From assembly GCA_029778615.1 (NCBI GenBank), contig JAKOPZ010000306.1:1-36604 (forward strand): a stretch of 36,604 nt of DNA, read 5' to 3'. The notes below the pieces were generated by a model. The model saw only the letters and a program-made list of their open reading frames with translations, made no database searches and was not told the DNA's origin. The DNA comes from Chloroflexota bacterium (GTDB lineage Bacteria; Chloroflexota; Anaerolineae; UBA4142; SHND01). Shown here piece by piece: positions 921 to 28,573 of this stretch. The translations under genes and the position numbers were made by a program. The stretch's first letter is position 1. The number at the start of each line of letters is the position of its first letter.

Positions 921-1061
921 AGACTTGGGTTTTAGCACAGATGCTTGGATACAACAATCCGCAGCGTAGGCGAACAAGAGAATGGGCAAGCATCACGCAT
1001 TGACCGACGCGTGTGCGCTCGAGGCGCGAACGCATGGCAATGCTTTGTCCCTACACGCGCG

Positions 1062-1090
1062 AAATAAAAAAGGACACGCGTAGCGTGTCC
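1062..1090 (-). terminator. Rho-independent terminator after greA
   Basis: On the minus strand a perfect 8-bp stem GGACACGC/GCGTGTCC with a 3-base loop is followed directly by TTTTTT. It lies 26 bases past the greA stop and separates greA from the ABC gene. Confidence 0.85.
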
Positions 1091-1115
1091 GGGGCTCACC
1101 GCGTGTCCTCTCCGC

Positions 1116-1586
1116 TTACGAAACTTGAATCAAACGGAGCTGACGTTCGCCGGCGGGTGTCTTGACGGTCACCACGTCGCCCGGTTTCTTGCCCATCAAC
1201 GCGCGTCCGACGGGCGATTCATTTGAAATGCGTCCTTTAATCGGGTCGGCTTCGGCAGACCCGACGATTTGGTATTCTTCGTCGTCTTTGGTCCCTTTCT
1301 CGACAACTTTGACGCGCGAGCCGAGACGCACCACGCCGGTCGCTTCTTGTGATTCGATGATGGCAGCGTTTTTGAGCATTTGCTCCAGCTGCATAATTTT
1401 GCCTTCGACAAAGGCTTGTTGTTCTTTGGCGGCGTCGTACGCGGAATTTTCCGAAATGTCGCCTTCTTCTTTGGCAGAGTGAATGGCTTCGGCAACTTCG
1501 GGGCGTTTGACGTTGATGAGAAATTCGAGTTCTTTGATAATTTTCTCGCGCCCCTCCGGCGTGAGAAAAACGGGCTTGTCAGCCAT
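1116..1586 (-). CDS. greA: Transcription elongation factor GreA
   Basis: GreA rescues backtracked RNA polymerase by stimulating cleavage of the nascent RNA through the secondary channel. The protein is 156 residues, close to the usual 158. The N-terminal coiled coil carries the acidic tip motif GDISENSAYDAAKE with Asp43 and Glu46, equivalent to E. coli Asp41 and Glu44. The C-terminal FKBP-like domain has the typical run SPVGRALMGKKPGD followed by V-V-V-T-P. The frame extends 56 codons upstream, but the start chosen is the ATG at 1584-1586, which opens with the family's usual N-terminus (MADKPVFLTPEG) and has an AAGGAAG ribosome site 8 bases before it. It is monocistronic, with its own promoter and terminator. 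Confidence 0.97.
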   Translation of the reverse strand: MADKPVFLTPEGREKIIKELEFLINVKRPEVAEAIHSAKEEGDISENSAYDAAKEQQAFVEGKIMQLEQMLKNAAIIESQEATGVVRLGSRVKVVEKGTKDDEEYQIVGSAEADPIKGRISNESPVGRALMGKKPGDVVTVKTPAGERQLRLIQVS

Positions 1587-1679
1587 GAGCGTGCTTCCTT
1601 TGCGTCGCCTTGCGGGCAACGCCATAATAAAAACGGACATCGCCGCGCCCAGTTGCTGCGCCGATATCCGACGGCGAGA

Positions 1680-1707
1680 ATTATATCCAAAACTCTTTTT
1701 GTCGCAA
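1680..1707 (-). promoter_or_regulatory. Probable greA promoter
   Basis: Reading the minus strand there is TTGCGA (1707-1702), a 16-base spacer and a perfect TATAAT (1685-1680). It lies about 95 bases upstream of the greA ATG, so a leader of roughly 85-90 bases is predicted. Confidence 0.55.
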
Positions 1708-1755
1708 ACTGCCTCGCGATGTATGCGAATCGAATTCGCGCCAACACATCGCAAA

Positions 1756-2018
1756 ATCGGCGTCCGCCGATGAGTACTACTTTGTCAGTTCAATTCTTGG
1801 CGATTAGAAATCGCAGCAACGCATAGCCAAGTCTGCCTACGCAGACTTGAAACGGCTCAAAATTATGCAAAATCTCAATCGGCGGAGGCCGATTTCGCAC
1901 TGGGTTGCCGCGATTTGAATCGCCCAACCGTAAAATGACAAAGTAGTATTAGTGAACGCGGGTTCACTTGCGATATGTTGCCGCGATTTCAATCGCCCGC
2001 AAAAATTTGACAAAAGAA
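1756..2018. repeat. Palindromic repeat cluster in the greA-marR gap
   Basis: This gene-free gap (1587-2053) is packed with small hairpins. A perfect 13-bp inverted repeat, TACTACTTTGTCA (1775-1787) and its complement (1936-1948), encloses AAGTCTGC-CTAC-GCAGACTT (1829-1848) and AATCGGC-GGAG-GCCGATT (1877-1894). Just inside each outer arm lies a GCGATT-n-AATCGC hairpin (1800-1814 and 1910-1923) next to a GCAAC/GTTGC run. A third, partial copy of the right arm (GTTGCCGCGATTTCAATCGC then TTTGACAAA) lies at about 1978-2013. ATCGGCG-TC-CGCCGAT at 1756-1771 adds another hairpin. This resembles a MITE or REP-like element with one and a half copies. No coding gene is supported here. Confidence 0.6.
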
Positions 2019-2034
2019 CATTCCGCCATAGAAT
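2007..2034 (+). promoter_or_regulatory. Promoter of the marR-adaptor-RND operon
   Basis: Perfect TTGACA (2007-2012), 16-base spacer, TAGAAT (2029-2034). The -35 hexamer lies inside the partial third copy of the palindromic repeat (TTTGACAAA). The predicted transcription start near 2041 gives a leader of only about 13 bases. Confidence 0.7.
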
Positions 2035-2053
2035 ATTTCCACCTTGGAAATAT
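2033..2053. promoter_or_regulatory. Putative MarR operator (9-3-9 palindrome)
   Basis: ATATTTCCA-CCT-TGGAAATAT is a perfect 9-bp inverted repeat with a 3-base centre. It begins in the -10 box and ends on the base before the marR ATG. Size, symmetry and position are what an autorepressing MarR dimer would need. The right arm also contains the only Shine-Dalgarno-like GGAAA. Confidence 0.65.
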
Positions 2054-2602
2054 ATGCCTGCTAAACGAATGAGCGCCGAGCGCGCCATCCAAATCCAACA
2101 GCTGCGTACCTGTTGGGAAGCGCTCATGTTTCTCCTCCCGCGCCTGCAATCCACAATGCCCGCCGTCATGGTGCAAGCGCGCGAAAAATTACGCCGCCAC
2201 AATCTCGCCGCCGGTCCCGAATTTGACAAAGTGGTCTTGTTCGCGTTCTACCGCCTCGCCGCCCTTTTGACCTTGCGCCAAGAACCCATCACGATGCGCG
2301 AAGTCGGCGAAGTGTTGGAAACACCGCTGAGCAGCGCGACGCGTTTGGTGGACGCGTTGGTCGAAAACGGTTTTGTCGAACGCGTGGCAGACCCGCAAGA
2401 CCGCCGCGTGGTGCGCATTACGCTCACCCGCGCAGGCAAAGCATTGTACGACACTGCCGTCGAATTTTTCAACGCGCGTCTCGCGGATTTTTTGTCGCAC
2501 TTTGACGCGCAGGAACGCGAACAGCTGCTTGCCTTGTTTCAAAAAACGATTCGCGTTCTGCAAGAACTCAACCCCCAAAACCTTTCCGCAAGGAGTCAAT
2601 GA
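2054..2602 (+). CDS. MarR-family transcriptional regulator
   Basis: A winged-helix dimeric repressor of 182 residues. The core reads as a MarR DNA-binding domain: a helix-turn-helix with TMREVGEVLETPLSSATRLVDALVENGFVER and the wing DPQDRRVVRITLTRAGKAL, in which the D-x-R-D-R-R signature is nearly intact. Flanking helices (about residues 5-60 and 140-175) would make the dimer interface. The frame is open from a GTG at 1952, but the ATG at 2054 is chosen because the promoter and palindromic operator lie immediately before it; an in-frame ATG at 2069 is an alternative. It is the first gene of an operon with an adaptor and RND pump, 4 bases from the next ATG, so it probably represses the pump until a toxic ligand binds. 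The ligand is unknown. Confidence 0.92.
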   Translation: MPAKRMSAERAIQIQQLRTCWEALMFLLPRLQSTMPAVMVQAREKLRRHNLAAGPEFDKVVLFAFYRLAALLTLRQEPITMREVGEVLETPLSSATRLVDALVENGFVERVADPQDRRVVRITLTRAGKALYDTAVEFFNARLADFLSHFDAQEREQLLALFQKTIRVLQELNPQNLSARSQ

Positions 2603-2606
2603 ATTT

Positions 2607-3905
2607 ATGAACGTCAATCCGTTTGGACGCGCGACGCGCGGTTTCCGCTTGCCTGCGCTCGTGCTTGTCATTTTGAGTATTGCGCTCGTCGGCGCCGCGT
2701 GCGCGAACGCGCCCGCATCAAGCAACCCCGCGCCCACCGCCGTCGCAGTCCAAGCCACAGCCGTGCCGCCCGCGCCCACACCATTCCCGACCGTCATCAA
2801 TAATGACAGCGCGAGCGGCGCGCGCGTCACCGGCAATTTTGTTTCCGCCAATCAAGCCGCCATCGCCTTTCAAATGCCGGGACGCCTCAAGGAATATTCG
2901 GTCAAAGAAGGGGACAAGGTAAAAGCAGGTGACGCGTTGGCGTCGCTCGATACCACACTGCTGGAATTGCAAATCGCGCAAGGGCAGGCGGCAGTTGCGT
3001 CCGCGCAAGCAGCAGTAAACACCGCACAGGCGGCGGTCGCTTCCGCCGAGGCGCGTTTGAAACAGACGCAAACGCCGGCGAGCGCCGAAGCGGTAGCGGC
3101 GGCAGCCGCTGCCGTCAAAGCAGCCGAAGCCAATTTTGCGCGCGTGTCGCAAGGACCTACGGCGGATGACCTCGCGCTTGCCAAAGCAAATCTTGACCGC
3201 GCGAAAGCGGCGCTCGACCAGGCGCAAGCGTTATATGACCGCGCCGGCGGCGCAACGAATCCGTACTCGGGAATGCTGCCCACTTCGGTTGGATTGCAAC
3301 AAGCGACGGCGGGGTACGAAGCCGCGCTCGCGCAATACAACCTCGCCAAAAATCATCCGACGATTGCGGAACTCGCCGGAGCCGCCGCGCAGCTCGCGCA
3401 GGCGAAATCGGTGCAGGCATCGTTAGTCCCCACTGCCGAAAATCTCGCCATCGCGCAAGCGGGCATCACTCAGGCACAGGCAGGAGTCATGCAGGCGCAA
3501 GCCGGCGTGAATCAGGCACAAGCTGCGCTCGACCTCGCGAAAGCGAATTTGGGAAATGCCACCATCGCCGCGCCGTTTGACGGCGCCGTCGTTTTGACCG
3601 GTCCAAAAGTGGGCGAGTATGTGAACCCCGGCGTGCCGATTGTGACGCTCGCCGATTTATCCAAGATGCAAGTGGTCGCGAATGTGGATGAAATCACGTT
3701 GAGCGGAATTCGAGTGGGACAGAACGCAACGTTGATTGTGGATGCGTTGGGTGAAAAAACGTTGACCGCGCGCGTTTCCAAAATCGGTCTGTGGGCGACG
3801 ACGCAAGGCGGCGTGACGAGTGTGCCCGTTACGCTCGACGTGACAAGCACCGACGCAAATATTTATCCCGGGCTCAGCGCAACAGTCCAATTCGAGGCGC
3901 AATAA
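2607..3905 (+). CDS. RND efflux periplasmic adaptor (HlyD/AcrA family), putative lipoprotein
   Basis: The membrane-fusion adaptor links an inner-membrane RND pump to downstream export. The protein is 432 residues. It starts at the ATG 2607, 11 bases after AAGGAG, and opens with a basic N-terminus, a hydrophobic stretch and a Cys at residue 32 (LVGAAC), suggesting a lipoprotein; the lipobox is imperfect at -3. The first lipoyl half (about 75-110, with AIAFQMPGRLKEYSVKEGDKV) and the second (about 310-345, TIAAPFDGAVV) bracket a long Ala/Gln-rich coiled-coil hairpin (about 110-305) containing several repeated QAQAxVxxAQAA segments. A beta-barrel domain follows. Just upstream of 4012 the RND pump begins. 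The adaptor hairpin is long, although no outer-membrane factor gene is present nearby. Confidence 0.93.
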   Translation: MNVNPFGRATRGFRLPALVLVILSIALVGAACANAPASSNPAPTAVAVQATAVPPAPTPFPTVINNDSASGARVTGNFVSANQAAIAFQMPGRLKEYSVKEGDKVKAGDALASLDTTLLELQIAQGQAAVASAQAAVNTAQAAVASAEARLKQTQTPASAEAVAAAAAAVKAAEANFARVSQGPTADDLALAKANLDRAKAALDQAQALYDRAGGATNPYSGMLPTSVGLQQATAGYEAALAQYNLAKNHPTIAELAGAAAQLAQAKSVQASLVPTAENLAIAQAGITQAQAGVMQAQAGVNQAQAALDLAKANLGNATIAAPFDGAVVLTGPKVGEYVNPGVPIVTLADLSKMQVVANVDEITLSGIRVGQNATLIVDALGEKTLTARVSKIGLWATTQGGVTSVPVTLDVTSTDANIYPGLSATVQFEAQ

Positions 3906-3920
3906 AACCTCTCCCGCCCG

Positions 3921-3991
3921 CTCCTTGACAAGGAGTGGTTGCCAACACGGCGCGGATGCAAGGAAATCCAAGCGCGCCTTGTGGTTGGCAA
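3921..3991 (+). promoter_or_regulatory. Two hairpins in the adaptor-RND intergenic leader
   Basis: CTCCTT-GAC-AAGGAG (3921-3935) is followed by a larger two-part stem: TTGCCAAC (3939-3946) pairs with GTTGGCAA (3984-3991), and inside it GGCGCG (3949-3954) pairs with CGCGCC (3973-3978). The structure ends 2-3 bases before the GGGGTGAGG ribosome site of the RND gene. No T-tract is present, so it is not an ordinary terminator; it may be a processing or stability element that sets adaptor:pump ratios. Confidence 0.4.
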
Positions 3992-4011: not shown

Positions 4012-7000
4012 ATGAACATACCCAAGCTTTCGATTACGCAACCTGTTCTGATTACGATGGTGGTGCTCGCCGCCGTCGTCGTCGGCGCGCTCGCATTCAC
4101 TTCGTTGCCGGTAGACTTGCTGCCCAATATTTCGTTTCCGGTTGTCGCCATCAGCACCGTGTATCCCGGCGCGGGCGCGTCGGATGTGGAACGCTCTATC
4201 ACGAAACCGATTGAAGAAGCAGTGAGTTCGCTCAACGGCGTGGATACTGTCACATCCACTTCGCAAGAAAATCTTTCGCTGGTGACGATTCAATTCACGC
4301 TGGAGACAGACCCGCAAAAAGCCGCGCAAGATGTGCAGGAAAAAATCAATGCCATTCGCGGCAGCTTTCCGCGCGATGCGTTGAGCCCGACCGTACAGCG
4401 TTTTGATTTTTCGGCAGTGGCGATTATGACGCTCGGCGTTACGGACACGACGGGCAACTTGAAACCCGACGAGCTGCGCCGCTTTGTGGATGACAAAATC
4501 AAATCGCGTTTTGAACGCATTGCCGGCGTGGCACAAGTGAATGTGACGGGCGGTTTGCAGCGGCAGATTCAAGTCAATATGAATCTCGACGCGCTCCGCG
4601 CGCGCCGCATTGCGCCCGCGCAAGTGACCGGCGCCATTGCGCAAGCCAACGCGAGTTTGACCGGTGGACGTTTGCAGGAAAACGGACAGGATGTTTTGAT
4701 TCGCACGCCCGGCGATTTCACCTCGCTGGAAGAAATCAATAACGTCGTCGTCACGACGCAGCGCGGCGTTCCCGTGTATGTGCGCGACATCGCCACCGTC
4801 ACGGATGGCTTTGCCGATGTGGAAACATACAGCCGCTTGAACGGTACGGACAGCATCGCGATTTCGATTCAGAAACAATCGGGGACAAATACCGTCGGCG
4901 TCGCGGATGCGGTGCAAGCGGAATTGACAAAAATCCGCGCGGAAAATCCGAATCTCACCATCGTCGTCGCGAGCGACCAATCCACGTTCATTCGCGAATC
5001 GGTGAATGATTCGTTGTTCGATTTGGGACTCGGCGCGTTGTTTGCCGCGTTGGTGGTGTTGTTCTTTTTCCGCGATGTGCGAAATACCGTCGTCACCGTC
5101 GTCGGTCTGCCGGTGATTATCATTGCGACCTTTGCGGCGATGCAATTTCTCGGCTTGTCGCTCAATTTGCTCACGCTGCTCGCGTTATCGCTCGCGGTCG
5201 GTTTGGTGATTGACGATGCGATTGTGGTACGCGAAAACATTTTCCGTCATATGGAACGCGGCGAAGACCCCAAGACCGCATCGCTGAATGGAACGAATGA
5301 AGTCGGACTTGCGGTGGTGGCAATGACGCTCACCGTCGTTTCTGTCTTTTTGCCGATTGCGTTCGTGTCGGGCATCATCGGACGCTTTTTTCAATCGTTC
5401 GGTCTCACCGTCACCGCCGCCGTTTTGATTTCACTCGTCGAAGCATTCACGCTCGCGCCGATGCTTTCGGCGTACTGGTTCAAGCAGCGTAAACTCAAAC
5501 CCGAAGAAGAAAAAGAGCTCGCCGCCGCGCACGAACAAGCGCACGGCGATATGGAATTGGAAGAAGCCGTAACGGCGCGTTTGGGCTGGCTCGACCGCAC
5601 GTATCGCACCGCGCTGCGTTGGACACTGCATCACAAAATTATCACGGCGGGAATTGGCGCGCTCGTCTTTCTGGGAATTCTCGCGTGCCTTCCCTTTTTG
5701 CAATTCAACTTTTTGCCGAACACGGGACAGGACACGTTGAGTCTGGCAATTCTTTTGCCGCCGGGCACGCCGCTCGACGCGACCGATGCCGAAGCGCGCA
5801 AAATCGAATCCACACTCCGCGCGCTCCCGGACGTGCAAGATGTTTTCGTCACCGTCGGCGGCGCGGGCACACCCGAACGCGCGTCGTTCACGGTGAAACT
5901 CAAAGAAGCGAATGTGTACAACGCCGTCGAAAAAGAATTGCGTGAAAAATTGGCAGGAACGCCGGGGCTCGCGTTCAGCGCGGGCGGATTCGCCGGCGGC
6001 GGCACGAGTGTCACCGGACGCACGATTCAAATGAACTTGCAAACGACCGGTTCGGTGGACGACCTTGTAACCGCGTCGCAGCAAATTCTGGATGCGATTC
6101 AAGATGTGCCGGGGCTGGTTGACCTCGGGCGCAGCTATCAATCCGGCAAACCGGAACTGCACATTGACGTTGACCGCGAACGCGCCGCGCGGCTCGGACT
6201 TTCCACTGCCGCCGTCGGTTCGACCGTGCGAACGTTGGTCAATGGCGATACCGCATCGCGGTACCGCGAGCCGGGCAAGGAAGCGGATATTGTCGTACGC
6301 TTGCGTCCCCAAGACCGTTCGCGTTTGCAGGACATTCTCGATTTGTCATTGACGACGGCGACGGGCCAAGTGGTGCCGCTCCGCAATGTTGCCACGTTGT
6401 CAAACGCGTCGGGACCGACGGCGTTGGAACGGCTGAATCGCGAATCCAAAATCACGGTCGGCGCAAACATTCTCGGACGCGCGCAGCAAACCGTTGCCGA
6501 TGAGATTCAAGCGCGCGTGGATAAATTGCAGCTGCCCGCGGGGGTGTCGGTGAAATTTGGTGGACAGGTCCAGCAGTTTAACGAATCGTTTCGTTCGCTG
6601 TTCATTTCGCTGCTGCTCTCGGTGCTGTTTGTGTACATGGTCTTGGCATCCCAGTTCGGCTCGTTCACACAGCCAATCATCATGATGTTGGCGCTGCCGC
6701 TGTCACTGCTCGGCGCGTTCCTCGCGCTGTTGGTGACGGGAATCAACTTTGACCTGACCGCGATGATTGGCATCATCATGCTGTTTGGTCTCGTGACCAA
6801 GAATTCGATTCTGCTCGTGGACTTTGCCAATCGCTTGCGGCGTAGTGGCGTGCCGCGCGACCAGGCACTGCTCATCGCGGGACCGATTCGTCTGCGTCCC
6901 GTGTTGATGACATCGCTTTCGTTGATTCTCGGTTCGCTTCCCGTCGCGCTCGGTCTCGGCACCGGCGGCTCGTTCCGACAACCGCTCGCGCTCGTCGTCA

Positions 7001-17968: not shown

Positions 17969-18454
17969 ATGGCAGAAGTTGCACCATCCGCCGGAGGTGG
18001 CGGCGGCAACCGAAACTTTTTGCTGATTATTGGCGGGCTGGGCGCGCTCGTCATCATCGGACTAATTGCGTTGGGCGCGATTGTTTTGCTTCCGTCGCTG
18101 TTTGGCGATGGCAATACCAACATTGCCGCCGTCACCGCGACGCCCACGCGCATTTCCATTCCGCCAACGCCGACGCGCACGGCACAGCCCACCGCGACGA
18201 CTGTGGTGGTGGCGCAAGCGACCAACGCGCCAACCGCAACCGAGACTCAAGTGCCGCTCGAAGAAACCGCCACGCCGATTCCGATTACGGCAACGCCAAT
18301 TGCGATTACGGCAACGCCGGAAGCGGGTGCGGGAAACGAAACCAACAATCAATTGCCCGAGTCCGGTTTGGGCGAAGATTTGATGTTGTTGTTTGGCGGC
18401 GGGATTTTGCTGCTCGGCGTCATTTTCATCGTGCGGCGAATGCGTTCGGCATAA
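17969..18454 (+). CDS. Cell-surface protein with LPESG sorting-like C-terminus
   Basis: A 161-residue protein. A Gly-rich N-terminus is followed by a membrane helix (about 17-42) and a Thr/Pro-rich extracellular stretch (about 50-120) of ATPTR and ATPIPIT-like repeats. The C-terminal tail is QLPESG, then a hydrophobic helix (LLLFGGGILLLGVIFIV) and a basic end RRMRSA. That tripartite tail is the form of a sortase signal, with Glu-Ser in place of the usual x-Thr of LPxTG. It has two hydrophobic anchors, so it could simply be a double-pass membrane protein. The ATG follows a perfect GGAGGT at 7 bases. No sortase gene is in the window. A strong terminator ends the unit. Confidence 0.75.
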   Translation: MAEVAPSAGGGGGNRNFLLIIGGLGALVIIGLIALGAIVLLPSLFGDGNTNIAAVTATPTRISIPPTPTRTAQPTATTVVVAQATNAPTATETQVPLEETATPIPITATPIAITATPEAGAGNETNNQLPESGLGEDLMLLFGGGILLLGVIFIVRRMRSA

Positions 18455-18551
18455 TGTCAACGGCAGAGCAATTTTGTCCATCACGCGCAACCCAACGCGG
18501 TGCGTGATGCCGATACCACACGCCTTCAGAACCTTCAACTATGCGAAACCA

Positions 18552-18590
18552 AAAACCAACGGAAATATTTCCGTTGGTTTTTTCATTTTT
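18552..18590 (+). terminator. Rho-independent terminator ahead of the CHAT island
   Basis: A perfect 15-bp palindrome AAAACCAACGGAAAT (18552-18566) and its complement (18567-18581), followed by TTTTTTCATTTTT. With A-runs on both sides it could act bidirectionally. Confidence 0.85.
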
Positions 18591-18646: not shown

Positions 18647-18675
18647 TTTTCAACGCGCGGTGATTACAATATAAT
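18647..18675 (+). promoter_or_regulatory. CHAT-island promoter
   Basis: TTTTCA (18647-18652), 17-base spacer, perfect TATAAT (18670-18675). The predicted start near 18682 leaves a leader of about 23 bases before the ATG at 18705, with no ribosome site visible. Confidence 0.65.
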
Positions 18676-18704
18676 GACAGCCATTCCACCTGCCGCAATT
18701 GCTT

Positions 18705-20657
18705 ATGCCAACTCTTCAAAAATATCTCGATTTTGATTTAGAAATTCTGCGAGATGGTGATGCGTACCGCGCGCATGTTATCAATTCACCTGGCGGACAA
18801 GGCAGCGCGCCTTTCAAAATTCCCTTTAGTGATGAAAAACTTGAAAACTTGATTTTGCGGATGGGACTGGTGCGCGCCAAAACGCGCAGCGCGGCGAATA
18901 CACGTCTCGATGCCGCCAAAGAATTGGGCGGCGCATTGTTTCAAGCTGTGTACACAGGCGATGTTGCGCGGTGTTGGGATGGCAGCTTGACGGCGGCGCA
19001 TTATCAAAACGCCAACCTACGCGTGCGGTTGCGGCTCGACAGTGTTCCCGAACTTGCCGAATTGCCTTGGGAATATCTGTACGCCCCCGCGCCGCAAAAT
19101 CGTTTTTTTCACTTGTCGCCCGACACGCCGCTCGTTCATTTTTTGGAATCGAACTTGCCCCTGCCGACCCTGGAAGTGACCCCGCCGCTCAACATTTTGC
19201 TCATGGCATTCGTGTCCCGCGATCAGATGCCGCTAGACATTGACGCCGAAGAATCAAAACTCAATACCGCTTTGGCGCAAGCCCGTGCGCACGGCGTTGT
19301 CACGCTCACGCGTTTGCCGCGCGCTGATTTGGACACTCTTCAAGATGCCCTTTTGGAAAAAGAGTATCACATCTTGCACTTTATCGGGCATGGAGAATTT
19401 GATGTCCATCGCGAACGCGGCTACTTGATTCTCGAAGGCGATAATGGGTATGGCGAACGCATTGAGGACGAACGGTTTGCGCGCATGATTGGCGACCACG
19501 ATTCGCTCCGTCTCGTAATGCTCAATTCATGCGAAGGGGCGCGTCCCACACGCACGGATGCGTTTGGCGGCGTCGCGCAGCGTTTGATTCAACAAGGTGT
19601 GCCTGCCGTAATAGCGATGCAGTTCGAAATTACGGATGATGCAGCGCTCGCCTTTTCGCGCAAATTCTATACCGCGCTCGGTTTGAATCGCCCGTTGGAA
19701 GCGGCGCTCGCGGAAGGACGCAAAGGAATTTATGCCAAGAGCGATACCGAATGGGGCACTCCCGTTTTATACTCGCGCGCGCCGGATGGAATTTTGTTTG
19801 ACATTCGCGGCGCGCCCACCGCGCCGCCGCCCACAAAAACAGAAACAACCGTACCGCTTGAGCCCGCCACCGAAACGCTGACGTATGACGAATTGATGCG
19901 GCGCGCGACGGCGGCACAAAAACGCGGCGAACAACTTTGGAACGACACACCAACCGATGAACAGGCGTGGCGCGCAAAATTTCAAGACGCGTTTGCACTG
20001 CTCGAACGCGCCGAAAAATTGCGCCGCGATGACATTCCCGCGCTGCTGCAAATGGCGCAAGTCCGCGCGCGGTTGGATACGGATACGAACGCGGCAAAAG
20101 CATTGTTACTGCGCGTGGAAGATTTAATCGGCGAACCGATGAACGATGACCTCGTGCGTAAATTGGGCGAGGCATATTTCCTGCACGCGAATTTGAGCGC
20201 GCCGCCGAACGAAAAATTGTTGGCACGCGCACGCGAACAATTTGAACGGTTGAATGATTTCAAAATGCAGGAACGCATTGACGCGCTGCTGCACCGCGCC
20301 GCGCGTCCGAATGCCAAGAGCTTGGGCGATTTTTACGACGAGACCGCGCCGAAAACGGAAACGGACTTTAACCCGTTGGGCAAGTGGAACATCCAGGTCC
20401 AAGATATGGTCGGCAGTCGGCTGCTGGTTGACCTGGCAAGCAACGGCACATTTCAAATGAACCAACAAGTCGGCATGTATCAGGTGCCCGTCAACGGTTC
20501 GTGGACGTTTAATCCACTCACCAAACAACTCGCGCTCAACGGCGTGGTCAATACCTTTCAGCCGTTCACGCTTTCCATCACCATCAGTGGAAAACTCCCC
20601 AATGGTTATGCGGCAGTGGGTAACGACGGTATCGGTTACGTACTCACGCGCGGATAA
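18705..20657 (+). CDS. CHAT-domain protease with helical repeat and beta-rich C-terminus (CHAT-1)
   Basis: CHAT domains are caspase-like cysteine peptidases used in prokaryotic stress and immune pathways. This protein is 650 residues. Residues 1-370 hold the CHAT unit: His229 in HFIGHGEFD (HxxGH motif) and Cys276 in LNSCEGARPTRTD, followed by the typical AVIAMQFEITDDAALAFSRKFY and WGTPVLYSRAPDG strands. A Pro/Thr linker (about 371-390) leads to an alpha-helical region (about 395-535) resembling TPR-like repeats, then a beta-rich tail (about 545-650) with alternating aromatic and Gly residues, similar to lipocalin-like folds. The frame is open from a TTG at 18699; the ATG at 18705 is chosen. 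Its N-terminal 370 residues are clearly paralogous to those of CHAT-3. Substrate unknown. Confidence 0.9.
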   Translation: MPTLQKYLDFDLEILRDGDAYRAHVINSPGGQGSAPFKIPFSDEKLENLILRMGLVRAKTRSAANTRLDAAKELGGALFQAVYTGDVARCWDGSLTAAHYQNANLRVRLRLDSVPELAELPWEYLYAPAPQNRFFHLSPDTPLVHFLESNLPLPTLEVTPPLNILLMAFVSRDQMPLDIDAEESKLNTALAQARAHGVVTLTRLPRADLDTLQDALLEKEYHILHFIGHGEFDVHRERGYLILEGDNGYGERIEDERFARMIGDHDSLRLVMLNSCEGARPTRTDAFGGVAQRLIQQGVPAVIAMQFEITDDAALAFSRKFYTALGLNRPLEAALAEGRKGIYAKSDTEWGTPVLYSRAPDGILFDIRGAPTAPPPTKTETTVPLEPATETLTYDELMRRATAAQKRGEQLWNDTPTDEQAWRAKFQDAFALLERAEKLRRDDIPALLQMAQVRARLDTDTNAAKALLLRVEDLIGEPMNDDLVRKLGEAYFLHANLSAPPNEKLLARAREQFERLNDFKMQERIDALLHRAARPNAKSLGDFYDETAPKTETDFNPLGKWNIQVQDMVGSRLLVDLASNGTFQMNQQVGMYQVPVNGSWTFNPLTKQLALNGVVNTFQPFTLSITISGKLPNGYAAVGNDGIGYVLTRG

Positions 20658-20690
20658 AGCTTTGCCTTGCAATTTGGAAAGGAGTTGAAG

Positions 20691-20737
20691 ATGTGCGACC
20701 CGCACACCCACGCCAAATGAAAATGTGGGGGCGGTAG
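20691..20737 (+). other. Two overlapping mini-ORFs in the CHAT-1/CHAT-2 leader
   Basis: A 9-codon frame M-C-D-P-H-T-H-A-K (20691-20720) starts after a strong GGAAAGGAG ribosome site. Its stop overlaps (ATGA) a second frame, M-K-M-W-G-R (20717-20737). The segment also contains complementary C-rich and G-rich runs (CCGCACACCCAC around 20700 and GTGGGGGCGG around 20725-20734). This could be a leader-peptide device or the relic of a lost gene start. Confidence 0.35.
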
Positions 20738-20795
20738 GACAAATGGCGAACATCGTTCGCAAGAAATTCTGTCGTACATTTTCCAGAGAGCCCCT

Positions 20796-22922
20796 ATGCC
20801 CATCCCCGAAGACAAAATCAATCACAACTGGCTGGAATGGAGCCGCGACACGACCGTGCGCGAGGCAAAGGAACGCCTCGCGCGCGATGACCGACGCAAG
20901 CAGTGGATTGTCACACCCATTTCGCAAAACGAGTACGCGGTGTGGCGCGTCGCCGATTTGATTGATTATTTGCTGAACGAGTTGTACGTGCACGATGTCA
21001 CCGAACGCATGTTGGACGCGACGCTGGAAGAGATTCGCGGCTTTTTGCCGCGCTTTACGCGCGCAGCGGTGGACGCCAACGCCGATTGGCAAGATGTGCA
21101 AGAGACATGGAGCGCGCTGGCAGACCCGCCGTTGGTCGTTTTGCGCAACGGAACGCCGATTGGCATTTTGCGCGTGGGCTCGCGTCTCGGCGGGGGGGAT
21201 ATTGATTTTATAGACCGGGCACCGATGCCGGAACCCAAAAGCGCGAACGGGGGCGGCGAAAGAGCGGAACCGCCGCCCCCGCAACCCGGAACACTCGGCG
21301 GACCGGAGCCCGCGCCGAGCACCGCACCGACGCGTTTCATCAACGCCGTGTTGCAAGACCACGACAAAAATGCGCCGCTTCAAGTAGGCGAGACCTACAC
21401 GCTCGCGTTCAGCGTGGAATTGGAAAAACTCGCGGCTGCCGTTTCCGCCGAAAAATTCAAAGAGCAAAATTTATTCCCCGAAGGCGTGATGCAGGTCGAG
21501 TTGATGGTGCAGTTGTTGAGCGACGATTTTTTGGTGCACAGCGACCCGCAAAAACTTATTGTGCCGCGCACGGGCAAATCCAAAAACAAAGCGCGCTTTG
21601 ATATTGAACCAACCCAAAATGGCGCGGGCGAACTCACTGCCGTTTTCATCAAAGACGGCAATGCCGTACAGGCTATCAAGCTCACGCTGAACGTCGGCAT
21701 GGCGGGTTCGCCGAGCGTGCTCGGTTCGGAAAACATCGGACGTCAACTCGAAACGGCGGGCGTGTTACAGCCGCGCGATTTGCTCTTGTGGATTGAATAT
21801 ACCGGCACCAATTACACGCTGCGCGTGTTGGACAAGGTGCCGATGAAGGCAACCTTGCCCCTTTCGTCCACCGACCTCGAAAACGCGGTGGTGCAAGCGC
21901 GGCAAACCCTCGAAAGTGTTGTGAATCTCGATTTCAACAACGAAAAAATTTTTCAGGTCGAAACCAAAATTCCGTCGGCAGCGCGCGATATGGCGATGCC
22001 CCTGCTTGCCAAAGCGGGCTATCTGCTCTATCAAGAATTGTTTTATCACGCGCTCGCCGATACGGACACGCGCAAGCTGGGTGATTATTTACGCCAGCGC
22101 GCCCAGAACGAAACATTGAAAATTCAAATCGTCTCTGCCGACATGATGCTGCCGTGGGGTTTGTTGTACATGGAAGACGACCTCGACATCAATCATGTCA
22201 ATCCCGAATCCTTTCTCGGTTTCAAACATCTCATCGAGCATGTGCCGTTTCAATCTGCCACCGGTTATTCCGAAACCATCAACAGCCAGCCGCAGCTCAC
22301 CATCAGCTTGAATCTCAACACGGACATTGACACGCAAATGAATTTTCCGTTGGTGCAAAAACAGCTGGACTATTGGAAAAACAAAAAATTGCCACCCGGC
22401 GTCCAGCTTGTCAAACGCACCAGCGGCAACGATTTGCTCGCCGCGCTCGGAGACGCGACGACGAGCGACCAGATTATGTATTTTTACTGTCACGCTGTGA
22501 GCAAAGAAGCCGCGCAAGGCGGCGCGAATTTGTCCGAGCTGCATTTTGCCAACGGACAAAAACTTTCGCTCGGCGATTTCAAAGCGTTCGCGCCGACGAA
22601 AACGCGTTTGGGCACACTGCCGCTCGTGTTTATCAACGCGTGCGAATCGGCGCAGCTGTCGCCGCTCTTTTACAACGGATTCATGCCCTACTTTGTGGAC
22701 AAGGGCGCGCGCGGCATGATTGGCAGTGAATGTTCCGTGCCCGCGTTGTTTGCGATGGAGTGGTCGTTCAAATTTTTTGACCAACTCTTGGCGGGCAAGT
22801 CCATCGGACAAATCTTTTTGGATTTGCGGCGTGACTATTATTCCCAAAACAACAATCCGCTCGGACTGTTGTACGCGGTGTATTGCGACGCGGACACGCA
22901 AATTGCTCCGGCGGTGGCGTGA
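20796..22922 (+). CDS. Divergent CHAT-domain protein with CBS-like N-terminus and beta-rich middle (CHAT-2)
   Basis: A 708-residue protein. Residues about 15-60 and 108-135 (WIVTPISQNEYAVWRVADLI and LVVLRNGTPIGILRV) read like the two halves of a CBS-type domain, which often binds nucleotides. A Pro/Gly-rich linker (about 141-178) follows, then an Ig-like beta-rich segment (about 179-302). The C-terminal CHAT domain (about 330-700) has its catalytic Cys616 in FINACESAQ, while the usual HxxGH is replaced by YFYCHA with His566. The strand order is otherwise that of CHAT. It lies between two other CHAT genes with a 138-base leader before it and 21 bases after it. It could be active with an altered active site or be a regulatory pseudo-protease. 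The ATG at 20796 has only a weak ribosome site. Confidence 0.85.
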   Translation: MPIPEDKINHNWLEWSRDTTVREAKERLARDDRRKQWIVTPISQNEYAVWRVADLIDYLLNELYVHDVTERMLDATLEEIRGFLPRFTRAAVDANADWQDVQETWSALADPPLVVLRNGTPIGILRVGSRLGGGDIDFIDRAPMPEPKSANGGGERAEPPPPQPGTLGGPEPAPSTAPTRFINAVLQDHDKNAPLQVGETYTLAFSVELEKLAAAVSAEKFKEQNLFPEGVMQVELMVQLLSDDFLVHSDPQKLIVPRTGKSKNKARFDIEPTQNGAGELTAVFIKDGNAVQAIKLTLNVGMAGSPSVLGSENIGRQLETAGVLQPRDLLLWIEYTGTNYTLRVLDKVPMKATLPLSSTDLENAVVQARQTLESVVNLDFNNEKIFQVETKIPSAARDMAMPLLAKAGYLLYQELFYHALADTDTRKLGDYLRQRAQNETLKIQIVSADMMLPWGLLYMEDDLDINHVNPESFLGFKHLIEHVPFQSATGYSETINSQPQLTISLNLNTDIDTQMNFPLVQKQLDYWKNKKLPPGVQLVKRTSGNDLLAALGDATTSDQIMYFYCHAVSKEAAQGGANLSELHFANGQKLSLGDFKAFAPTKTRLGTLPLVFINACESAQLSPLFYNGFMPYFVDKGARGMIGSECSVPALFAMEWSFKFFDQLLAGKSIGQIFLDLRRDYYSQNNNPLGLLYAVYCDADTQIAPAVA

Positions 22923-22943
22923 TGCGCTTTGGCTTGCGCGCAC

Positions 22944-25436
22944 ATGGAACAGCTGACCTACCTCGATTTTGATTTGGTTGTCAAGCGCTTGCCGGACGGC
23001 TATCGCGTCGAGGTTACGCGTTCTCCGGCGGGCAGTGCGCGCGCAGAATTTACGCTCCCTTTTTCTGATATTGAAATCGAAAATGTGTTGTTGAAACTCG
23101 GCGGAGCGCGGCGGCGCGTGCGGCGCATTGAATCCGCCGAAATGGACGCGGCGAAACAATTCGGCGGCAGATTGTTCAACGCGGTTTTCAGCGGCGACGT
23201 GCGGAGTGTGTACGCCGCCAGTGCGCAAGAAGCCAATGCGCGCGATGTGGGTCTGCGTTTGCGGTTGCATTTAGACGACGCGCCCGAGCTCGCCGATTTG
23301 CCGTGGGAATTTTTATACAATCCCGCACTGAATCGTTTTCTCGCGCTGAGCGTCAAAACGCCTGTCGTGCGTTTTCTCGAACTCCCCGAACAAATTCGTC
23401 CGCTCACCCTTCACCCCCCCCTCAATGTGCTGGTCATGCTTTCCAGTCCGACCGATTACGAGTCGTTGGACGTGGAGCGCGAATGGAATCATTTGCAAAA
23501 CGCCCTGGGGGATTTGACGCGGCGCGGCTTTGTCAAACTCGAACGGCTGGAATCCGCGACGCTGACCGAACTGCAAAAAAAATTACAGGAACGCGCGTAT
23601 CACATTTTCCATTTCATCGGACACGGTGCCTTTGACGAACGCACCCAGGAAGGTGTGTTGATTTTGGAAGGAGTTGAAAAACGCGGCAGACGCGTCGGCG
23701 CGCAAATGCTCGGCGCGATTTTGCATGACCACGGTTCACTGCGGCTCGCCGTCCTGAATTCGTGCGAAGGGGCGCGCACTTCGCGCAATGACCCGTTCGC
23801 GGGTGTCGCGTCCAGTTTGGTACAGCAGGCAATTCCCGCCGTGATTGCGATGCAGTTCGAAATCAGCGATGACGCGGCGGCAACCTTTGCGCGCAGTTTT
23901 TATCAAGCGTTGGCGCGCGGCTATCCGGTGGACGCGGCACTCGCCGAAGTCCGCAAAACGATTTTTGCGGACAACAATGAGATGGAATGGGGCACGCCCG
24001 TTTTGTATTTGCGCGCGCCCGACGGCAAAATTTTTGACGTGCGGGAAAATTTCGCGCCCCCCGTCGCGCCAACACCGACGCCGAACAAACCGACGGGGAT
24101 GCCCGAAACGACGAGTCCCCGCGCGTCGCCGCGCGCGCCTGTGCAAGCCGCGCGCGTCAAGCGGGACACGCCGCCCGTCGCCTTTGTAAAAAAATATCCG
24201 CTCCCGCTCGCACTGGCACTCATCGCCTTGCTGAGTCTCGTCGCTGTCGCCGCATCGGGTATTCTGACCCCTGCGCCCGTTTGCACGAATCAAGCGCTCG
24301 TGGTGGGTTCCGATTATCCGCCCGTTGGCTCGACGTTTAACGCGGGCGAAAAAATTCCCATTGTGTGGCGAGTGCGCAACACGGGAACGTGCGCGTGGAA
24401 TAACACGTATCGCGTGTCACAATTCAGCGGCGACGAAATGACGATAGAGGGCGCGTTCCCGAACACCGCAGCGGACGAAGAAGCCGAGATTGAATTTTCC
24501 ATTGTCGCCCCCGCGTTCGCGCGCGAATATCAGGCGGCATGGCGCTTGAGTAACCCGCAAGGAAATTTTTTCGGCGATAAATTTTCGTACGTCTTTTCGG
24601 TACGCGCCGCCTCCGCCGCCGAACCAGCCACACCCACACCGGACAAATCGCCAACGCAAGAAACCGCAACGGCAGAGGAAACCGCAACACCCCAAGCCGA
24701 TGCCATTTATCCACTGCCAACTATCGTCAGCGAAGAACGCGGGAGTACCGGTGCATGGATGGTGTTTGTTCCGGCAGGCGAATTTACCATTGGTACCGAT
24801 GCAGGCGGTGACGATGAAAAACCCGCGCACCAAGTTCATCTCGACGCGTTTTGGATTGACCAATACGAAGTGACCAACACGCAGTACAGGGAATGTTCAG
24901 AGGCGGGCACATGCCAACCGCCGTCAGAAAGCGGCTCGAGTTCGCGCGATTCGTACTATGACAATTCAGATTATGATGACTATCCCGTTATTTTTGTTTC
25001 GTGGCGAGATGCGTGGACGTTTTGTGAATGGGCGGGCAAGCGTTTGCCGACCGAGGCGGAATGGGAAAGCGCGGCGCGCGGTCCCCAAGCGCGGCGTTAT
25101 CCGTGGGGCAATGAATTTGAACAGACTCGTCTCAATTCCAATCAAGTGAATGGCGATACGACCCAAGTGGGCGATTATCCTGACGGCGCCAGTGTGTACG
25201 GGGCGTTGGATATGGCAGGCAATGTTTGGGAATGGGTCGCGGATTGGTTTGGCGCCAAGTATTACGAGAATTCACCGCACGACAATCCCACCGGACCGGA
25301 ATCGGGCGGTTCACGCGAGCTGCGCGGCGGGGCGTGGGACGCGGACGAGTTTTTTGTGCGTATGACCCATCGCGGCGACCGCGCGCCGAAAGAACGCAAT
25401 TACAATATCGGTTTCCGCTGCGCGCAGACGCCGTGA
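22944..25436 (+). CDS. Transmembrane CHAT protease with NBR1-like Ig and FGE-like extracellular domains (CHAT-3)
   Basis: An 830-residue protein. Residues 1-368 form a CHAT domain with His227 (HFIGHGAFD) and Cys274 (LNSCEGARTSRND), paralogous to CHAT-1. A Pro/Arg-rich linker ends in VKRDTPPVAFVKK, then one membrane helix (about 419-441). Positive charges before the helix predict CHAT inside and the rest outside. Outside are an NBR1-type Ig-like domain (about 447-555; PVGSTFNAGEKIPIVWRVRN, then TGTCAWNN), a Thr/Pro linker, and an FGE-sulfatase-like domain (about 602-830; FVPAGEFTIGTDAGG, YEVTNTQYREC, RLPTEAEWESAARG, YPWGNEF, DMAGNVWEWVADWF, GFRCAQTP). In the segment GGAWDADEFFVRMTHRG the catalytic Cys pair of true FGE is absent, so a binding role is likely. 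The ATG at 22944 is chosen over an upstream TTG. Confidence 0.9.
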   Translation: MEQLTYLDFDLVVKRLPDGYRVEVTRSPAGSARAEFTLPFSDIEIENVLLKLGGARRRVRRIESAEMDAAKQFGGRLFNAVFSGDVRSVYAASAQEANARDVGLRLRLHLDDAPELADLPWEFLYNPALNRFLALSVKTPVVRFLELPEQIRPLTLHPPLNVLVMLSSPTDYESLDVEREWNHLQNALGDLTRRGFVKLERLESATLTELQKKLQERAYHIFHFIGHGAFDERTQEGVLILEGVEKRGRRVGAQMLGAILHDHGSLRLAVLNSCEGARTSRNDPFAGVASSLVQQAIPAVIAMQFEISDDAAATFARSFYQALARGYPVDAALAEVRKTIFADNNEMEWGTPVLYLRAPDGKIFDVRENFAPPVAPTPTPNKPTGMPETTSPRASPRAPVQAARVKRDTPPVAFVKKYPLPLALALIALLSLVAVAASGILTPAPVCTNQALVVGSDYPPVGSTFNAGEKIPIVWRVRNTGTCAWNNTYRVSQFSGDEMTIEGAFPNTAADEEAEIEFSIVAPAFAREYQAAWRLSNPQGNFFGDKFSYVFSVRAASAAEPATPTPDKSPTQETATAEETATPQADAIYPLPTIVSEERGSTGAWMVFVPAGEFTIGTDAGGDDEKPAHQVHLDAFWIDQYEVTNTQYRECSEAGTCQPPSESGSSSRDSYYDNSDYDDYPVIFVSWRDAWTFCEWAGKRLPTEAEWESAARGPQARRYPWGNEFEQTRLNSNQVNGDTTQVGDYPDGASVYGALDMAGNVWEWVADWFGAKYYENSPHDNPTGPESGGSRELRGGAWDADEFFVRMTHRGDRAPKERNYNIGFRCAQTP

Positions 25437-25445
25437 TTTTTTGTG

Positions 25446-26819
25446 TTAGGTTGGCAGCGTGAACCAAAAAGCCGCGCCTTGCCCCAATTCACTGGCAACT
25501 CCGATTTTGCCTCCATGCGCCTCGACCCACTGTTTCGCAATTGGCAGTCCCAATCCCGAGCCGCCTTGAGTCCGCGCGCGAGATTTGTCCCCGCGCCAAA
25601 AGCGTTCAAATACGTGCGGCAGAGCTTCGGGCGCAATGCCTGACCCCGTGTCCCGCACCTCAACCCGCACGCCCTGCGCGTCGCGCGTTAGCGACACGGT
25701 AACGCTCCCCTGCGCCGGCGCAAAGCGCAGCGCGTTCGAGAGCAGATTGCGTAAAGTCTGCTCGATGCGCTGAGCATCCACATTCAGCACAGGCACATCC
25801 GATAGTCGCGTCACAAGCTTGATATTTTCTTCTTGCGCTTGCGGCAAGAATGCGGCAGTGGTACGTTCGACCAACGCGCGCAGGTCGGTTGGCGCGCGAT
25901 TCAGCACCAACTGTCCCGCATCCGCGAGCGCCAACTCGCGCACATCTCCGACGAGACGCGCGAGCAAAAGCGTTTCGTCATGCAAAGAGACAAGCTGTTC
26001 CGCATCCGTTGGAAAAACGCCGTCTATCATCGCTTCCAAATGACTCGAAATGATGCCAATGGGATTTCGCAGCTCGTGCGCAATGTCGGCGAGCATGTTG
26101 CGTCTTGCCATTTCCGAAGTCGCCAGTTTGTCCGCCATCGCGTTAAAGGAACGCGCCACCTGCGCGATTTCGTCATTGCCGGTAACGTCGGCGCGTGCGC
26201 TCATATCTCCGCCCGCGATTTTTTCAGACGCGATGGCAAGGGCGTTTAACGGTGTCGTGATTTGTCGAAAGAGAATAAAGCCGAGCGCCAGTGCAATGAT
26301 GCCCGCGACAAATCCCGCCAACAAGAGGGAACGGTTCACCTGATTCAAAAATTCTTGCGCTGCCGGGTCCAGCAGCGCGTTTAATGGGTCCCCCGCGATG
26401 GCGAGTGTGCCGACAACCTGCCCGTCAACCACAATCGGCGTGCCGGACGCGCGCAGCGTCGAGTCCAACGCCTCGCCAATTTGCTGCTGGTACGAATCTG
26501 CCACAATCACGCCCCGCGCATCGGCAAGGAGAATTCGGCTGGACATGCCTGCCATCCCCGCGCCGCGCATCTGCCCGCGACTCATCATCCCGCCATTGCG
26601 CGGAAACAAATCTCCGACGCCTTGCCAACCGCTATGGACGCGATAATAGTTTGCCAGTTCGGCAACAAAATCTTCTTGCTGCACCATTTCGCCGCGAAAC
26701 ATGAATTGGCGAAATTCGTTCGTCGTCGTCTGATTCGCAATCACGGCAACGACAAGGACGCCAATCAAAATGACAAACGCGAACGCGCCCATCAAGCGCA
26801 CAAACAGTCCGTGTCTCAT
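25446..26819 (-). CDS. Sensor histidine kinase, HAMP type
   Basis: A 457-residue membrane kinase with TM1 (about 9-29), an extracytoplasmic sensor (about 30-163), TM2 (about 164-186), HAMP (about 184-236), and a HisKA domain with phosphoacceptor His248 in LADIAHELRNPIG. The HATPase domain has N-box NLLSNALRFAP, G1 DTGSGIAPEALPHVFERFWR and G2 GGSGLGLPIAKQWVEAHGG. The sensor contains a Met/Gly-rich stretch (about residues 76-92, GGMMSRGQMRGAGMAGM). Its start overlaps the stop of the upstream response regulator (ATGA), so they form one unit. It converges on CHAT-3 with a gap of only 9 bases and no terminator between, so overlapping antisense transcripts are likely. The signal is unknown. Confidence 0.95.
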   Translation of the reverse strand: MRHGLFVRLMGAFAFVILIGVLVVAVIANQTTTNEFRQFMFRGEMVQQEDFVAELANYYRVHSGWQGVGDLFPRNGGMMSRGQMRGAGMAGMSSRILLADARGVIVADSYQQQIGEALDSTLRASGTPIVVDGQVVGTLAIAGDPLNALLDPAAQEFLNQVNRSLLLAGFVAGIIALALGFILFRQITTPLNALAIASEKIAGGDMSARADVTGNDEIAQVARSFNAMADKLATSEMARRNMLADIAHELRNPIGIISSHLEAMIDGVFPTDAEQLVSLHDETLLLARLVGDVRELALADAGQLVLNRAPTDLRALVERTTAAFLPQAQEENIKLVTRLSDVPVLNVDAQRIEQTLRNLLSNALRFAPAQGSVTVSLTRDAQGVRVEVRDTGSGIAPEALPHVFERFWRGDKSRARTQGGSGLGLPIAKQWVEAHGGKIGVASELGQGAAFWFTLPT

Positions 26820-27781: not shown

Positions 27782-28573
27782 TTATTTCGCCACGCCAAGC
27801 AAAATGAGATTTGCCCCCGTGACCGGTTGGGCTCCCGAGCCCCCACCATTTTGACCAATTTCTCTAAATTGCACTCTGCCAAATAAGGCGGCATTGAGCT
27901 GTCGTGTTAAATCTTGCGCCACCCCTGTCGCCGAAACATAGCCGACGGATGAACCTTCCGGCGTTGGCAATACTTTGAGCCACGCGGATTCCAATTGAAG
28001 CGGCGTTTGCGTCGTCGTCACATTGATTTGCGCCGCAAACGGAATGCCGCCGAGTCTATCCAAATTTCCGCCGATGGCGATTTGTCCCGGCGAACTCATC
28101 AAACGCGCCTTGCCATTGCTGATGCCCAGCTGCGGTCCAAGAATGAAACGAAAATACGAGCTCACCTCATCTTCGGAAAACTGGACCTGAAAGCGCTGCC
28201 CAGATTGGAGAGAATTTAACTGGCGAATTTTTTCCTGCATCGAGCGCGCCGCATCGAGTGAAGAACCCTCGCGCAGCGGACGATTCAGCGTGGCGACCAC
28301 CGCCGCGCTCGCCACCGCGCCGAGCGCAAAAAAGACCAGCGCGGTAAGAAACACCAGCCCGCCGACGATGAGGGCAATCCGTTGCACATCTTGCGCGCTA
28401 AAGCCGCGTTGTACGGTGACCGTTTGTCCCGAAATCGAATCGCCCGCGACATTCACATCGCCCGCGACAAAATCGCGCGCGGCGCGCACCTCGCCGCCGG
28501 AAATCTCAACGCCGCCGCGCCGCGTTTCATTTTCCTGTGGGGGTCTTTGGGGCAGAGAAGAGGGTTCGTCCAT
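27782..28573 (-). CDS. Single-pass membrane protein of unknown function
   Basis: A 263-residue protein. The N-terminus is Pro/Glu-rich, then a short repetitive beta-like stretch (about 24-54: ISGGEVRAARDFVAGDVNVAGD followed by SISGQTVTV). A membrane helix (about 65-94) and a soluble domain (about 110-263) follow, with QFSEDEVSSYFRFIL and LESAWLKVLPTPEG. The soluble part resembles lipid-binding TULIP/YpmS-like domains in its start (SEDE then hydrophobics), but this is weak. The ATG at 28573 stands 4 bases from a 107-base MITE, and the in-frame stop at 28586-28588 lies inside that element, so there is no longer upstream start. The gene could have lost N-terminal or regulatory sequence on insertion. 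Nothing recognisable links it to the two-component genes. Confidence 0.7.
   Translation of the reverse strand: MDEPSSLPQRPPQENETRRGGVEISGGEVRAARDFVAGDVNVAGDSISGQTVTVQRGFSAQDVQRIALIVGGLVFLTALVFFALGAVASAAVVATLNRPLREGSSLDAARSMQEKIRQLNSLQSGQRFQVQFSEDEVSSYFRFILGPQLGISNGKARLMSSPGQIAIGGNLDRLGGIPFAAQINVTTTQTPLQLESAWLKVLPTPEGSSVGYVSATGVAQDLTRQLNAALFGRVQFREIGQNGGGSGAQPVTGANLILLGVAK

Follow-up and report, generated by a model that had tools for sequence, protein, structure and literature searches.

Most of what is known about the caspase-like CHAT proteases of bacteria concerns effectors that act singly and are activated by a CRISPR, CBASS or STAND partner. Protease cascades built on them have already been described, namely SAVED-CHAT of type III CRISPR/CBASS, in which the CHAT protease works in such a cascade (PMC11229360), and Craspase of type III-E CRISPR with its TPR-CHAT protein Csx29 (PMC9729208). 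Sensors of the FGE fold with CHAT and TIR are likewise known, since the CLec/FGE sensors diversified by diversity-generating retroelements (DGR) include a CHAT-TIR target (PMC10907252), and the MoxR-vWA ternary conflict systems combine caspase-like, TIR and FGE modules with TCAD2 (Kaur et al., 2020; PMC7159879). No earlier description of a conserved CHAT-CHAT pair was found in the open-licence literature.

This article describes three consecutive CHAT genes (CHAT-1, CHAT-2, and CHAT-3) of an uncultured Chloroflexota bacterium. They lie in a stretch of 36,604 nucleotides, the whole of which is referred to below as the window. The source genome (G000) comprises 6.0 Mb in 372 contigs and holds seven CHAT genes; under random placement 1.4e-4 triples within 7 kb would be expected, so that the clustering observed is far above chance.

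Relationship to Described Systems

The locus shares parts with each of these systems and differs from all of them in company or architecture. CHAT-2 resembles Csx29 in having a His-Cys dyad within a separase-like CHAT fold. The TPR helices of Csx29 have a counterpart in CHAT-1, where TPR-like helices follow the protease; CHAT-2 and CHAT-3 have none. Neither Cas7-11/gRAMP nor Csx30 was found near the CHAT locus in Pfam scans of 20 window ORFs. SAVED-CHAT (PDB 8tl0) is the best PDB match of CHAT-1 both by sequence and by Foldseek. However, no SAVED domain was recognized in CHAT-1, whose regions beyond the protease are TPR-like and lipocalin-like; the PADLOC SAVED_CHAT model matches the CHAT part only, and no cyclase or Cas10 was found in the window.

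The MoxR-vWA ternary systems share module company with the locus, and a fused paralog of the pair in a related genome (G005) adjoins a MoxR-like ATPase; no MoxR, vWA, VMAP or iSTAND genes occur among the ORFs scanned at the window locus itself. As in the DGR sensors, CHAT-3 carries a C-terminal FGE/C-type-lectin domain on a conflict-type protein, and the same genome holds a DGR with a NACHT-FGE target, but the CHAT-3 locus lacks a template repeat and reverse transcriptase and the CHAT-3 segment has no template-repeat match. The preliminary description of this DNA had remarked on the absence of STAND, gasdermin and CRISPR partners, which holds for the 20 window ORFs scanned with Pfam; no gasdermin family match was obtained beside the CHAT genes among these ORFs.

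Gene Organization and Expression Signals

The elements that delimit the locus are the following.

18551 to 18582, + strand: strong hairpin resembling a rho-independent terminator, at the end of the upstream gene (14-bp stem, T-rich tail; folding z -4.08)
18647 to 18675, + strand: sigma-70-like promoter candidate TTTTCA-17-TATAAT, with the CHAT-1 ATG 30 nt further on
18705 to 20657, + strand: CHAT-1 (ORF of 652 codons; CHAT score 101.5 bits)
20796 to 22922, + strand: CHAT-2 (ORF of 708 codons; CHAT score 31.7 bits)
22944 to 25436, + strand: CHAT-3 (ORF of 835 codons; CHAT score 111.6 bits)
25446 to 26819, convergent to the CHAT genes and downstream of them: histidine kinase
27782 to 28573, - strand: 263-aa one-helix membrane protein, CHAT-linked across the genus

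The probable ATG starts are at 18705, 20796, and 22944. All three proteins pass the curated cut-off of the Pfam CHAT family (PF12770; 24 bits), the CHAT-1 score having been taken on the frame that starts at TTG 18699. The arrangement given in the preliminary description, three CHAT genes in a row bounded by a terminator on the left and a convergent kinase gene on the right, is thus borne out by the ORFs, the Pfam matches, the hairpin and the kinase gene.

Sigma-70-like sites occur across the region at chance level, and for the candidate at 18647 to 18675 it is the position that is suggestive. The genes are separated by 138 nt (CHAT-1/CHAT-2) and 21 nt (CHAT-2/CHAT-3). Because the last gap is so short and the scan for promoter-like sites revealed none on the + strand between the three genes, they likely form one operon. 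The gap between CHAT-1 and CHAT-2 contains a tiny ORF (MCDPHTHAK, 20691 to 20720) with a good ribosome site, which may be due to chance. Immediately upstream of the operon (17969 to 18454) lies a gene whose conserved product of 161 aa has a tail of the sortase type (LPESG/TM/RR).

The locus is flanked in the window by housekeeping or transport genes, and in the genomes examined its neighbors likewise serve housekeeping, transport or sugar transfer. A defence island, for which the preliminary description had proposed to score enrichment, is rejected on these flanks.

The 263-aa membrane protein is encoded in 6/6 members of the genus; its gene adjoins CHAT-2/CHAT-3 in G002, G003, and G005 and is also present in G004, in which CHAT-1 and CHAT-2 were not found. 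It is a possible accessory of the CHAT locus. Glycine-rich beta-strand repeats (e.g., VNIGAGAxVGQxAxGxNI) were observed in CHAT proteins (loci L112, L114, L116, L118, and L120) and in a NACHT-FGE protein, and looser ones in this membrane protein.

Architecture of the CHAT Proteins

CHAT-1 and CHAT-2

The features of CHAT-1 are listed below.

18705 to 20657, + strand: caspase-like protease (residues 1-372), TPR-like helices (394-533) and lipocalin-like barrel (about 555-650)
19389 to 19391, + strand: predicted catalytic His229, retained in 5/5 CHAT-1 orthologs
19530 to 19532, + strand: predicted catalytic Cys276, retained in 5/5 CHAT-1 orthologs
20358 to 20654, + strand: C-terminal lipocalin-like barrel, eight-stranded (Foldseek 3hty, E 3.5e-3)

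The AlphaFold model of CHAT-1 (mean pLDDT 84) matches SAVED-CHAT, separase, TPRs and the lipocalin-like structure 3hty in Foldseek searches. What had been described as a helical repeat and a beta tail thus corresponds in the model to TPR-like helices and to a lipocalin-like barrel of eight strands. The barrel occurs as one copy per genome in 5/6 genus members, adjoining CHAT-2 in 5/5 of them, and found no match in 399 other Chloroflexota sampled. In G002 the helical part of CHAT-1 is missing and the barrel is retained.

CHAT-2, which is not a close paralog of CHAT-1 or CHAT-3, is organized differently.

20796 to 22922, + strand: N-terminal alpha/beta domain (about residues 1-125), macroglobulin/Ig-like domain (178-302) and CHAT protease (303-708)
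22491 to 22493, + strand: predicted catalytic His566 (YCHA), invariant in 18 homologs
22641 to 22643, + strand: predicted catalytic Cys616 (NACE), invariant in 18 homologs

About 300 residues of its predicted structure (AlphaFold, mean pLDDT 81) can be aligned with separase and Csx29 (VIA-align, Z about 20-22), and the macroglobulin/Ig-like part reaches Z about 9.3-9.5 in the same comparison. The Ig-like domain of the preliminary description therefore stands, while the CBS-like domain is unproven: the order of strands and helices at the N-terminus fits a CBS pair in the AlphaFold model, but no CBS match was obtained with Pfam or by fold, the N-terminus being barely covered by the VIA comparison. 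The active site had been called divergent. Its motif indeed differs, yet His566 and Cys616 do not vary among 18 relatives that represent four families of Chloroflexota, and an inactive CHAT-2 is rejected on this basis at the sequence level.

CHAT-3

CHAT-3 combines a protease with a membrane anchor and an ectodomain.

22944 to 25436, + strand: N-terminal CHAT protease, one membrane helix, NBR1-type Ig domain and FGE/C-type-lectin domain
23622 to 23624, + strand: His227, predicted catalytic from the sequence motif
23763 to 23765, + strand: Cys274, predicted catalytic from the sequence motif
24198 to 24263, + strand: membrane helix (about residues 419-440; hydropathy 2.58, position read from the sequence)
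24327 to 24587, + strand: NBR1-type Ig domain (PF16158)
24756 to 25424, + strand: FGE-sulfatase domain of C-type-lectin fold (PF03781), predicted ligand-binding ectodomain

As previously noted for both proteins, CHAT-1 and CHAT-3 carry HxxGH and NSC motifs, in both cases HFIGHG with NSC, and their paralogy over the first 370 or so residues amounts to 50% identity over residues 5-385. The His-Cys dyad of CHAT peptidases is accordingly found in all three proteins and, as the dyads are kept and the CHAT-2 fold matches separase and Csx29, CHAT-1, CHAT-2, and CHAT-3 are all expected to be active proteases.

The hydropathy of the helix and the Pfam scores of CHAT-3 (CHAT 111.6, N_BRCA1_IG 58.3, and FGE-sulfatase 199.6 bits) confirm the membrane helix with extracellular domains reported earlier and put a name to the FGE-sulfatase domain. 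Basic residues precede the helix, which places the protease on the cytoplasmic side. A function as formylglycine-generating enzyme is rejected, as the cysteines of the SUMF1 motif SYMCHRSYC are replaced in the alignment to SUMF1 structures. The segment between RGG and GFRC, which is the presumed ligand face, is hypervariable; among five CHAT-linked sequences its mean identity is 25% vs. 59% for the rest of the FGE domain. The absence of the catalytic Cys pair and the far greater variability of this segment suggest that the domain binds rather than catalyzes.

CHAT-3 as a DGR target is not supported, given that the template repeat of the genome aligns to it over only about 22 nt; no reverse transcriptase occurs at the locus, and both reverse transcriptase matches of the genome sit on other contigs. 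A complete DGR is present in the same genome (L063, G000:C152, 465-5434) and consists of a NACHT-FGE target (465-3458), an Avd-sized ORF (3540-3953), a template repeat (4080-4204) and a reverse transcriptase (4403-5434), with 19/20 differences between variable and template repeats located at template adenines. Another CHAT-FGE gene of this genome (L025, G000:C61, 1900-4005) is interrupted by an in-frame stop that separates its protease part from its FGE part, and about 70 nt at the FGE end are similar to the DGR template.

Conservation of the Pair

Orthologs of CHAT-2 occur in 5/6 genus members (G000, G001, G002, G003, and G005) and in 0/14 genomes from other genera of the same order. CHAT-1 lies directly upstream of CHAT-2 in all five, in the same order, and the left flanks of the pair are of three kinds among these species; in G005, CHAT-1 is split over two contigs that share an exact terminal overlap of 77 nt. 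Neither gene was found in G004, which is 79% complete. Only G000 and G005 have CHAT-3 at this site, from which it is missing in three of the five species that carry the pair.

The three genes had been regarded as one probable signaling island. A functional link is supported by the adjacency of CHAT-1 and CHAT-2 in five species and by a dead fused copy of the two, whereas a fixed three-gene island is rejected, the full trio recurring in a single other member of the genus (G005). The conserved unit is the CHAT-1–CHAT-2 pair and CHAT-3 is optional. The protease domains of the two CHAT-3 proteins are 80% identical; in G005 the FGE and Ig ectodomain has been exchanged for an unrelated extracellular part, and a 176-aa membrane protein is encoded between CHAT-2 and CHAT-3.

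In a tree of 36 CHAT domains of the genus the five CHAT-1 proteins group together (support 89/77), as do the two CHAT-3 proteins (100/100). The trees of the pair are not fully congruent, G005 being placed with G000/G002 for CHAT-1 and with G003 and G001 for CHAT-2. CHAT-3 belongs to a dispersed multi-copy family; the genus carries dozens of CHAT genes, including sibling lineages with FGE, SIR2-like or TCAD2 domains.

Outside the genus most relatives of CHAT-2 have no CHAT neighbor, a clear one being found only in two f27 genomes (L054 and L061), so that the arrangement is not a general one. Locus L054 (G314:C451, 2111-8703), from another family, encodes three same-strand proteases in a row: a CHAT-beta-propeller protein, a trypsin-PDZ protein and the CHAT-2 relative. 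No CHAT-2 was found in viral contigs, and plasmids gave distant matches only (23-30% identity). Two Streptomyces (Actinomycetota) plasmids carry a CHAT-2 relative head-to-head with another CHAT gene, as observed in Streptomyces sp. Alt3 plasmid NZ_CP120984.1 (L136, 5882-10704).

A Fused Copy Behind a TIR Domain

G005 contains a second copy of the pair (L021, G005:C260, 11534-7374, minus strand), in which a single ORF of 1386 aa joins a TIR domain, a CHAT-1-like CHAT domain and CHAT-2. Where active-type proteins have HFIGHG and LNSCEG, the CHAT-1-like part has HLVGEA and LQTHHF; the CHAT-2 part has YCNA and NANE. Both histidines and both cysteines are gone (4/4 catalytic residues), in contrast to all free-standing copies of CHAT-1 and CHAT-2, which retain both dyads. 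A MoxR-like AAA ATPase is encoded upstream, together with a protein matching TIR below threshold and a C14 caspase-TCAD2 protein, which are the kind of components known from the conflict systems of Kaur et al. (PMC7159879); with the fusion, the cluster spans 7374-16517 of L021.

One scan of the genome contigs returned this fused copy alone. Although a single example, the fusion indicates that the CHAT parts form a unit and may serve without protease activity once another effector is attached. Since all catalytic residues were lost in the TIR fusion, the pair could persist as a module in which a TIR effector replaces the protease output. The position of the dead copy behind a TIR domain and beside a MoxR-like ATPase and a caspase-TCAD2 gene is the strongest clue to function. 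From it we infer that CHAT-1 and CHAT-2 jointly serve a conflict-type system as its module for sensing and switching, the output at the window locus being proteolytic.

Proposed Function and Alternative Explanations

We propose, as a reading with about an even chance of being correct, that CHAT-1 and CHAT-2 constitute a two-protein protease switch, most likely directed against an invader, with CHAT-3 as an optional membrane-anchored input. The two proteins would be made together from one operon. The TPR-like helices and barrel of CHAT-1 and the Ig/macroglobulin-like and N-terminal regulatory domains of CHAT-2 may respond to a signal from inside the cell or bind a partner, thereby bringing the two active separase-like proteases together, upon which one would activate the other or both would cut a common substrate. 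The output would be growth arrest, cell death or a stress response. Where present, CHAT-3 may act as an interchangeable input whose lectin-like ectodomain binds a ligand outside the cell and whose cytoplasmic CHAT domain relays the signal by proteolysis; its adjacency suggests a role in the same pathway as the pair. No substrate gene (gasdermin, sigma factor or Csx30-like) was recognized in the operon, which speaks against this reading, as do the housekeeping or transport flanks, the incomplete congruence of the CHAT-1 and CHAT-2 trees, the mostly solitary CHAT-2 relatives outside the genus, the lack of CHAT-3 in three of the five species with the pair and the single occurrence of the TIR fusion. 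A protease cascade among CHAT proteins is plausible and, given the SAVED-CHAT precedent in type III CRISPR (PMC11229360), not new in kind. The link to defence would come from domain company rather than location, sibling CHAT proteins of the genus being fused to TCAD2 or SIR2-like domains, both known from conflict systems.

The main rival to the defence reading is envelope or stress signaling, in which CHAT-3 would serve at the cell surface as a receptor of sugars or of material from the cell wall, while the proteases would free a transcription regulator, as in the regulated proteolysis of anti-sigma-factor systems. The membrane helix, Ig domain and lectin-like ectodomain of CHAT-3 agree with such a role, as do the two-component genes and transporter that flank the locus, the chromosomal site with its conserved housekeeping flanks, and the match of the CHAT-1 and CHAT-2 models to the CHAT-like domain of DdvA, an anti-sigma factor of the membrane. 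However, no sigma or anti-sigma gene is present among the scanned ORFs, the pair is also fused to TIR within a MoxR-type cluster, and sibling CHATs carry SIR2-like and TCAD2 domains; we regard envelope signaling as rather unlikely.

Two further explanations concern the relationship between the genes. Linked caspase-like chains can split into active and regulatory members, and CHAT-1 and CHAT-2 may have specialized in this way, one cutting the target and the other acting mainly as scaffold or inhibitor; the YCHA of CHAT-2 departs from HxxGH in keeping with this, but the invariance of its dyad across four families argues for retained catalysis and makes such a division of labor rather improbable. 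It is also conceivable that the genes are neighboring paralogs that have no joint function and arose as a tandem array by local duplication in a large CHAT family, as the 50% identity of CHAT-1 and CHAT-3 and the dozens of CHAT genes in the genus might indicate. This explanation appears the least probable, considering that CHAT-2 is not closely paralogous to either neighbor, that the order of the pair is constant in five species despite three kinds of left flank, that barrel and CHAT-2 co-occur one to one, and that a fused version exists.

A broader form of the proposed protease switch, which we hold doubtful at present, is that the hetero-pair of two active separase-like CHATs, barrel-gated on one and Ig/N-terminal-gated on the other, could be a transferable death-switch core that accepts exchangeable membrane receptors of the CHAT-3 type and turns into a TIR system once both protease sites are lost.

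Concluding Remarks

Two different active CHAT proteases that are conserved as a pair without a CRISPR, CBASS or STAND partner, together with a natural dead version tied to TIR, would show how bacterial immune systems exchange the parts with which they sense and kill, and the CHAT-1–CHAT-2 pair offers a simple, testable two-protein model.
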